The notes under the pieces are model-generated. The model ran no database searches and had not been told where the DNA came from. It was given only the letters and a program-made list of their open reading frames with translations. From NCBI GenBank assembly GCA_018401375.1, contig JAGYKR010000002.1:124001-188000 (forward strand): a stretch of 64,000 nucleotides of DNA, read 5' to 3'. The stretch's first letter is position 1, and each line of letters starts with the position of its first letter. A program made the position numbers and the translations under genes. This document shows positions 58,615-63,402 of this stretch, in pieces. Source of the stretch: Ilumatobacteraceae bacterium. Its GTDB lineage: Bacteria > Actinomycetota > Acidimicrobiia > Acidimicrobiales > Ilumatobacteraceae.

Positions 58615-58645
58615 TGGTGGGGCGGATGGATTTCGAATCCACGAC
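58615..58645 (-). other. Copy of a tRNA 3' end (attachment-site remnant)
   Basis: These 31 bases match the 3' part (acceptor strand, encoded CCA, T-arm) of the intact tRNA at 63327-63357 in the same orientation, with only 3 substitutions. Two of the changes are compensatory in the T-stem, so the arm can still fold. There is no tRNA 5' half next to it. This is what integration into a tRNA 3' end leaves at the far end of the element. An independent decayed tRNA is the alternative. Confidence 0.75.
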
Positions 58646-58880
58646 TTTGTTCACTTGATCGATCCATCAGGTGAGTCTCTCGCGCAAACGATACGGCAAT
58701 CACCATATCGCCCCACGCCGAAGGGAGACCGCCTGTCCCTCTCAGTCGGTATCACACCGAATCGACGCGCCCAGTCCGCTATCTATCACACAACTAAGAG
58801 GAGCGTGTTTGAGCACGGGAGAGCAGCGTGCTCTGGGCGTTACATCACACATACAAAATTGAGTGGAAAGGGAAGAGAAC

Positions 58881-59138
58881 ATGACACTTCAAGAGATGCT
58901 GAGACATATCGCGGAGAATGATCAGACTCTGATCGAGATCGATGGTTTCGATCTCCAGGACCCCTGTTCGGAGATCAACGTTGTGATTTCACAGAGCGAC
59001 ATAGCGATGGTTGTGCGGATCGGGTGGGGATCTGTCGGATTGCACGCCGATGTGACTGGCTACCTGTACGGCGATCCTGTTGAGACTGAGCCGTTGAATG
59101 TGCTTGGAACAACATCGGTGTACGTGACGACGAACTGA
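58881..59138 (+). CDS. Unknown 85-residue acidic protein
   Basis: Begins MTLQEMLRHIAENDQTLIEI and ends with TTSVYVTTN. It is acidic, with no membrane segment, and probably mixed alpha/beta. A purine-rich ribosome binding site (GGGAAG) precedes the ATG at 58881. Base composition is lower in G+C than the flanking core genes. No family recognised. Located at the left edge of the putative element, it could be a small cargo or control protein. The 58490-58880 gap upstream contains the tRNA-end copy. Confidence 0.65.
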   Translation: MTLQEMLRHIAENDQTLIEIDGFDLQDPCSEINVVISQSDIAMVVRIGWGSVGLHADVTGYLYGDPVETEPLNVLGTTSVYVTTN

Positions 59139-59452
59139 TCCGGACGTATACGGGGGCGATGTCCATGAGCGATTTTGCATCATGGATATCCAACATTCTC
59201 CAAACGGCGCCAAACGAAATATGTGGACAGCCTCCCTTGGGATCAGGTTCCGACAGGGTTCGAATAGGTTCCTTTTGAGCACCTCTCAGCAAGTGGTGAC
59301 CGCTGGGGCGAGCGGTGACTGCAACAGCGGAGACTCGAATGATCTAGGCGACAACTCGATCTGATGGGATCGGGATTTGGGTCTGTGAAGTGACGTCCCC
59401 TGCAGTGGTACAAGGCTTGCGACAGTCCATTCGAATAGCAACAATATTCAAA
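59139..59452. other. Non-coding stretch before the LPXTG gene
   Basis: About 310 bases with no supported gene. A short irregular series of GGTTC-like direct repeats occurs near 59246-59272. No hairpin terminator is evident. It is more A+T-rich towards the promoter of the downstream gene. Confidence 0.5.
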
Positions 59453-59481
59453 TGTTCAATCTGTTTTTCTACGCGTATAAT
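59453..59481 (+). promoter_or_regulatory. Promoter of the LPXTG gene, predicted leaderless transcript
   Basis: A perfect TATAAT (59476-59481) lies 7 bases before the ATG at 59489. A TGTTCA/GTTCAA sequence stands at the -35 distance (59453-59459). No Shine-Dalgarno lies between them. Transcription would start at or within a base or two of the ATG. The surrounding DNA is markedly A+T-rich. Confidence 0.7.
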
Positions 59482-59488
59482 CTTCTGC

Positions 59489-62400: not shown

Positions 62401-62893
62401 CGGGTCGGTGGCGGGAAATGTGTGGTGGGACACCGACCGTGACGCGCACCGCAGCGGATCCGAAGTGGTGTTGGTGGGTGTTGAGGTGATGTTGTTGCAC
62501 CCAGATGGGTCACCGGTGTTCGACGTGTTCGGTCGCTTGGTCACTACGACATTCACCGATACGAATGGCAACTACATGTTCGACAACCTGTGGCCCGGTT
62601 CATACATCGTGGTCATCGTGACGCCCCCTGCCACAGATCCAACAAACGTGCCAGGTGCCCACCTGCCCAGCAGAGTTCTCCTTGAGGTGGTGTTGGGCCC
62701 CGGTCAACGTCTCAGCGGCTTCGATGTCGGTGTAGCCCTCTCGCAGTTGCCGGCCACCGGTTCAGGGCGCACTCTGCCCATGCTCGCCTGGTGGTTGGTG
62801 ATGTTCGGAATTTTTGCGGAGGCCGCACGTCGCCAGCGCATGATCACCGACACCGGTCGGACGGTGAGCAACCCAGCATCTAAGCCGGTGTAG
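59489..62893 (+). CDS. LPXTG cell-wall-anchored protein with SdrD-type B repeats
   Basis: A 1134-residue surface protein. A basic N-terminus and hydrophobic core (about 16-36) form a Sec signal peptide. Next come an N-terminal SdrD-like beta module (about 52-150) and a long central region (about 160-680) with propeller-like features ([19 protein letters not shown]). Three B-type modules begin near 688 ([20 protein letters not shown]), 846 ([20 protein letters not shown]) and 970 ([13 protein letters not shown]). The B modules bind calcium in staphylococcal Sdr proteins. The sorting signal LPATG at about 1087 precedes a hydrophobic helix and RRQR. The tail beyond is unusually long (about 20 residues). 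No sortase is in the window. Role in adhesion is inference. Confidence 0.88.
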   Translation: [1134 protein letters not shown]

Positions 62894-62940
62894 ACGCCGC
62901 CGCCCCCGACAGCCATCTGTTCACCAGCCCTCAGGGGTAA

Positions 62941-63239
62941 CGGCTGGACTACCACAACTTTGCGAGGAGAGTGTTGAGGCCTGCGTGTCAACGAGCAGGA
63001 CTTGAGGGAATACCTCTGTACTCGCTGCGACGCACTCATGCCACCATGCTGATCACCTCTGGCGCCAACGCCAAGACCGTGCAGCATCGCATGGGCAGGC
63101 ATCGATTCAGACGACCCTGAAGCACCATGCAACCTCGACCGACGAAGATCGCACCGCAGCAGCCTCAGCGAAAGCCGGATACCCCAAGTCCACCGCCTCC
63201 GACAACACAACCGATTCCAGTGCTGCGACCGCCCCTTAA
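62941..63239 (+). pseudogene. Tyrosine recombinase (integrase) C-terminal remnant, frameshifted
   Basis: The frame 62941-63120 reads LDYHNFARRVLRPACQRAGL, then YSLRRTHATMLITSGANAKT, then VQHRMG. This is the C-terminal catalytic region of phage-type integrases (R..H..H/R block, with RRTHA for the usual RHTHA and the QHRMG motif). After GRH the frame changes by one base. From 63105 the next frame continues with IQTTLKHHATSTDEDRTAAA, the expected continuation, to TAA at 63237-63239. The residue aligning with the nucleophilic Tyr is His (LKHHAT). The N-terminal two-thirds is gone; an in-frame stop lies directly upstream at 62938. Inactive. Confidence 0.85.
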
Positions 63240-63326
63240 GGAGGCTCAAAATGAAGGCGATGTGCACTTTTTGTGCTCTTCGGTCCGGCCCCGAAAGGTT
63301 CGCCATCACGAAACCCTTATAAACAT

Positions 63327-63402
63327 TGGTGGGGCGGGTGGGTTTCGAACCCACGACCAAGGGATTATGAGTCCCCTGCTCTCACCACTGAGCTACCGCC
63401 CC
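63327..63402 (-). tRNA. tRNA with CAT anticodon (Met, or Ile2)
   Basis: A complete cloverleaf: acceptor GGGGCGG/CCGCCCC, D-stem GCTC/GAGC, anticodon arm GGGGA-CTCATAA-TCCCT with anticodon CAT, 5-base variable loop, T-arm GTGGG-TTCGAAA-CCCAC, discriminator A and encoded CCA. It is an elongator-type tRNA. Assignment between Met and lysidine-modified Ile2 cannot be made by eye. Its 3' end abuts the putative element, so integration keeps it intact. Confidence 0.92.

Follow-up and report, generated by a model that had tools for sequence, protein, structure and literature searches.

A probable relic of a tyrosine-integrase element in a tRNA-Ile2(CAU) gene, with an LPXTG surface-protein gene between its repeats

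The interval that separates a tRNA-Ile2(CAU) gene from a partial copy of its own 3' end, near the right end of the window (the 64,000-nucleotide stretch of Ilumatobacteraceae DNA that was analysed), is probably a decayed tyrosine-integrase element that entered the tRNA gene and has since been fixed, with a gene for an SdrD_B-domain LPXTG protein as its surviving intact gene. We put the probability of this reading at roughly 0.75. Integration into the 3' end of the tRNA is well supported, because the repeat is direct, because the integrase remnant is rightly placed and directed, and because independent islands with exact repeats occur at the same tRNA gene in relatives. These observations uphold the geometry proposed in an earlier note on this DNA.

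The window ends on the right with a block made up of the rpoD C-terminus, tRNA-Asn and tRNA-Ile2 (Table 1), the 3' end of the latter pointing at the island. From tRNA-Ile2 leftwards follow the integrase remnant, the surface-protein gene, a fragment resembling LplA/LipB, an 85-residue open reading frame and the 31-nucleotide copy, beyond which lie a TetR regulator and then an AMP-binding ligase. The tRNA was named tRNA-Met(cat) by ARAGORN; the sequence ACTCATAATC around its anticodon we take to be that of tRNA-Ile2(CAU) rather than of a methionine tRNA. An intact CAT-anticodon tRNA with its 3' end towards an integrase remnant had been claimed before, and is confirmed by ARAGORN, by Rfam (74.9 bits) and by the PF00589 match to the remnant. 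The gene encodes its CCA end, which is absent from the copies of the gene in many relatives.

Table 1. Features at the right end of the window (positions are those of the window)
Feature	Position	Strand	Basis
31-nt copy of the tRNA 3' end, distal attachment repeat (attR)	58615-58645	-	28/31 identical, same orientation
Candidate continuation of tRNA-like sequence	58646-58715	-	GACTCA, TGGGGCG, fold
85-aa ORF without known family, in the island	58881-59138	+	
Decayed LplA/LipB-type fragment just upstream of the adhesin gene	59366-59424	+	47/59 nt; 18/24 aa
Intact surface-protein gene, 1134 aa	59489-62893	+	SdrD_B domains, LPATG sorting signal
Tyrosine integrase C-terminal remnant, towards the tRNA 3' end	~62917-63180	+	PF00589, PHROG
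Intact tRNA gene, CAT anticodon, tRNA-Ile2 type	63327-63402	-	ARAGORN; Rfam tRNA 74.9 bits
tRNA-Asn	63467-63540	-	
rpoD C-terminus	63636-63998	-	

The 3' half of the tRNA gene is the tRNA-side attachment repeat (attL). The two copies are separated by 4,681 bp (58646-63326), and both the repeat and its orientation are observed directly. When the 24-nucleotide pattern of the tRNA 3' end was searched for in the window with up to three mismatches, only the tRNA and the left copy were matched, and a search of the whole genome found the left copy to be the sole other copy of the tRNA-Ile2 3' end. Of the three differences, two compensate for each other in the T stem (G-C to A-T) and one leaves a G-U pair, so that the T stem, read from the sequence, is still able to pair. 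A second, weaker copy farther left in the window, which would enlarge the island, was not found.

The integrase remnant was recognized by PF00589 (Phage_integrase) over its joined frames, with an E value of 2.2e-8, and by a PHROG integrase match with an E value of 8e-14; integrases of Mycobacterium phages are 37-38% identical to it. The damage is plain: the N-terminal part is gone, there is an in-frame TAA, and the frame shifts near 63090. Frame 62896 reads LFTSPQG*RLDYHNF...THATMLITSGANAKTVQHRMG and the other frame carries on as QASIQTTLKHHATSTDEDRTAAAS. In the whole 2.2-Mb genome the PF00589 search returned only this remnant and two full-length recombinases of 331 and 329 residues, which are probably XerC and XerD. 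An element able to excise itself requires an intact integrase, and what is found at 62917-63180 is a relic. The truncation, the stop codon and the frameshift point to fixation of the island through decay of its integrase, as had been suggested from the letters of this DNA before the present analysis.

A tRNA gene lies no more than about 1.3 kb from most of the closest intact relatives of the remnant within the order. In G043 and G048 (both at tRNA-Val) and in G038 (at tRNA-Pro) the C-terminus of the integrase faces the 3' end of the tRNA. A copy of the tRNA-Pro 3' end, 28 of 30 nucleotides identical, lies 7.7 kb away in G038, and none was found within the short contigs of G043 and G048. The G038 island (L206) thus resembles that of the window in the direction of a related integrase and in the imperfect distal copy, and differs from it in the tRNA that is used and in having an intact integrase.

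The tRNA-Ile2(CAU) gene beside rpoD and tRNA-Asn is itself a recurrent integration site across the family (L037, L056, L184-L190), its repeated use being directly visible in the genomes of relatives. The three genes are adjacent in most family members. Partial copies of tRNA-Ile2 were found in 11 of the 151 family genomes, belonging to five genera (G017, G034, G076, G077, G078, G089, G098, G114, G136, G147 and G018); they begin at tRNA position 30-32, in the anticodon loop, and run to the 3' end. Several of them are on contigs apart from the tRNA. Two islands at tRNA-Ile2 are complete and have exact repeats. In G018 (L037) an intact tyrosine integrase of 329 residues directly adjoins the tRNA, whose 3' end is repeated at 5.2 kb; in G017 (L056) the repeat is at 7.4 kb, with an integrase relative and a relaxase-like protein in between. 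Both islands share with that of the window the tRNA-Ile2 gene next to tRNA-Asn and a direct repeat of the tRNA 3' half. Their repeats, however, are exact over about 45-50 nucleotides and their cargo is different, and the G018 integrase is intact, points away from the tRNA and is no close relative of the window remnant. G077 (L184, 1009-4284) carries a further two copies of the 3' half of the tRNA, at 2.0 and 3.2 kb from it, which suggests insertions that were nested or came one after the other. A large secreted-looking protein begins right beyond the distal repeat of the G018 island.

The attachment of tyrosine-integrase elements to tRNA genes has been reviewed (PMC8371274), tRNA fragments occur at the attR of integrative elements (PMC9897764), and the tRNA-fragment signature is a standard one (PMC9897764; PMC8371274). 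As in other tRNA-targeting elements, the tRNA in the window is intact, an integrase adjoins it, and a partial 3' copy lies, as a direct repeat, at the opposite end. Unlike them, the window island retains its integrase as a broken C-terminal remnant, has three changes in attR, and is reduced to 4.7 kb in which no other mobility gene was recognized. With a tRNA facing it, a 3'-end repeat, a degenerate integrase in between and cargo that is foreign in composition and patchy in occurrence, it belongs to a common class of genomic islands, and its tRNA is one that other elements have used in relatives.

The order of events may be reconstructed as follows. A mobile element that carried a tyrosine integrase would have entered the tRNA-Ile2(CAU) gene by recombination in its 3' half. 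The tRNA would have been restored by the near-identical 3' half brought by the element (attL), and the displaced end would now be 58615-58645 (attR). A later deletion of most of the element would have made the end of the adhesin gene abut the last quarter of the integrase. The stop codon and the frameshift would have destroyed the rest of the integrase, and attR would have drifted. With the integrase ruined and attR altered, the segment would no longer be able to excise itself and would be fixed. This small genome, of 2.2 Mb, would in this way provide a documented case of a fixed island from a defunct integrase, and the repeated landing site beside rpoD offers a concrete spot at which to seek intact elements across the family.

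The architecture of the surface protein can be read directly from its translation. A signal-like N-terminus is followed by a long region without known family, four SdrD_B domains (Pfam, E value 2.5e-62), and a C-terminus consisting of LPATG, a hydrophobic stretch and RRQR. Structures of SdrD in the PDB also match the product. The motif, the hydrophobic segment and the positive tail are those of a sortase-anchored LPXTG protein, and the genome encodes three sortases, one of which presumably anchors it. Its putative function as an adhesin is deduced from the domains. The SdrD_B domains and the sorting signal are common to this protein and the staphylococcal SdrC and SdrD MSCRAMMs, whereas its N-terminal region is unrelated to theirs by sequence and an SD-repeat region was not seen. 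Identity with SdrC or SdrD was rejected: the NCBIfam matches are confined to the B-domain region and, at 147.6 bits for SdrD and 122.6 bits for SdrC, are far under the respective cut-offs of 2500 and 1700 bits. A search of the available literature for Acidimicrobiia with LPXTG proteins and sortases returned no paper.

The adhesin gene is likely to have been cargo of the element, as it lies inside the repeats, has a foreign third-position composition and is patchy in relatives. Its GC3 is 0.81, compared with 0.56-0.74 in its neighbours, and the excess corresponds to a z of 4.0 against 34 neighbours after correction for amino-acid use. Homologues occur in 13 of 61 genomes, its own included, and are mostly 30-38% identical over long stretches. 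No tRNAs were seen beside them in their short loci in relatives, and the viral contigs searched yielded neither the adhesin nor the repeat pattern. The suggestion in the earlier note that the adhesin was acquired horizontally is thus borne out in part: the position between the repeats, the composition and the patchy homologues agree with it, and arrival together with the element is plausible. If the gene did arrive in this manner, such elements would be a possible route for the spread of LPXTG surface proteins within the group.

Alternatively, the element may be real and the adhesin never its cargo, having come in afterwards through a separate recombination event in which the N-terminal part of the integrase was replaced. 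The stop codon of the adhesin gene is at most 25 bp from the start of the integrase homology. The LplA/LipB-like fragment just upstream, which has a paralogue in the window (33866-34615, minus strand), points to patchwork assembly, and the GC3 excess, with a z of 5.0 in the first 700 residues, drops to a nearly host-like 1.6 in the last part of the gene. Nevertheless, the adhesin lies entirely between the repeats, the composition of its first two thirds is foreign, and its own genome showed no further adhesin homologue; a later insertion is therefore considered unlikely, with something like one chance in five left to it in our judgement. Along the gene GC3 declines from roughly 0.89 in the middle to 0.72 at the 3' end, a gradient that would fit a chimeric gene whose C-terminal end is host-like.

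The left copy might also be the decayed duplicate of an entire tRNA gene, the interval being ordinary lineage-specific DNA with no integrated element. Features resembling a tRNA, not mentioned in the earlier note, may extend beyond the 31 nucleotides. About 65 nucleotides upstream of the 31-nucleotide copy, the heptamer TGGGGCG at 58709-58715 is complementary to the 3' acceptor strand; the TGGGGCGATA at this place could be a 5' acceptor strand. A GGGGCGATA-like 5' end is expected by chance in 1-2% of cases, and an attR need not have such a match. The hexamer GACTCA (2-4% by chance) is found at 58672-58677, as in the anticodon region of the tRNA but 16 nucleotides farther away; either match turns up in about 1-3.6% of 120-mers from shuffled or background sequence. 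The fold has a z of -2.05, and acceptor, D-like and T arms appear in its centroid, the change in the T stem being compensatory. Some relatives, moreover, have two full tRNA-Ile2 gene matches. Duplication of the whole tRNA would, however, leave unexplained both the integrase remnant between the copies and the repeated islands at tRNA-Ile2. No credible tRNA or tmRNA was called in the left copy by ARAGORN, with introns and lowered thresholds, or by Rfam at E values up to 10. The alignment to the tRNA outside the 31-nucleotide copy was equalled by 1.6-15% of the background, depending on gap costs, and the alignment of the whole body was discarded as not convincingly above background. Conservation of the palindromic core of the T arm would also be predicted if the integrase binds there. 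In favour of the element, GACTCA is the point at which the identity blocks of the relatives start; in the window it is retained 26 nucleotides before the 31-nucleotide match, not 10. Duplication of the whole gene is thus improbable. It is equally doubtful that the left copy is a 101-nucleotide tRNA-like sequence (acceptor, D-like hairpin, extra hairpin and a T arm with the compensatory change) whose structure was kept for a time, for example as a tRNA-like gene borne by the element.

The idea that the tRNA 3' end resembles the left copy by chance, and that an integrase pseudogene of other origin happens to lie close by, has nothing in its favour save general possibility and can safely be dismissed: 100 dinucleotide shuffles gave no match with up to three mismatches in 24 nucleotides (chance expectation 0), and in the window the runner-up to the 28/31 match is the adjoining tRNA-Asn at 22/31, followed by noise at 19/31. 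There is little doubt, then, about the copy of the tRNA 3' end that the earlier note had placed about 4.7 kb away in the same orientation.

Among the genomes compared, the genus is represented by a single one, that of the window. The nearest relative by gene order, G004, shares the arrangement of the window from 52.8 kb leftwards as far as 42.0 kb. Next to its tRNA-Ile2 come an open reading frame of about 0.6 kb and then the aminotransferase; the adhesin (of which G004 has no homologue), the integrase remnant and the tRNA copy are all absent there. This supports a lineage-specific gain of the island. The pyrophosphatase (ppa), phosphatase, ClC, ligase and TetR genes are also missing at this place in G004, which differs from the window over the 5 kb to the left of the island, so that the locus is not a clean empty site. 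A search of GTDB r220 with the TetR protein for close relatives gave one distant match only. The adjacency of the aminotransferase and the pyrophosphatase is ancestral in the family. The genes at 53975-58489 (a ClC channel, a 249-residue open reading frame, an acyl-CoA-ligase-like gene and TetR) do not lie beside the conserved aminotransferase-pyrophosphatase(-phosphatase) block of relatives, and are possibly a second lineage-specific stretch.
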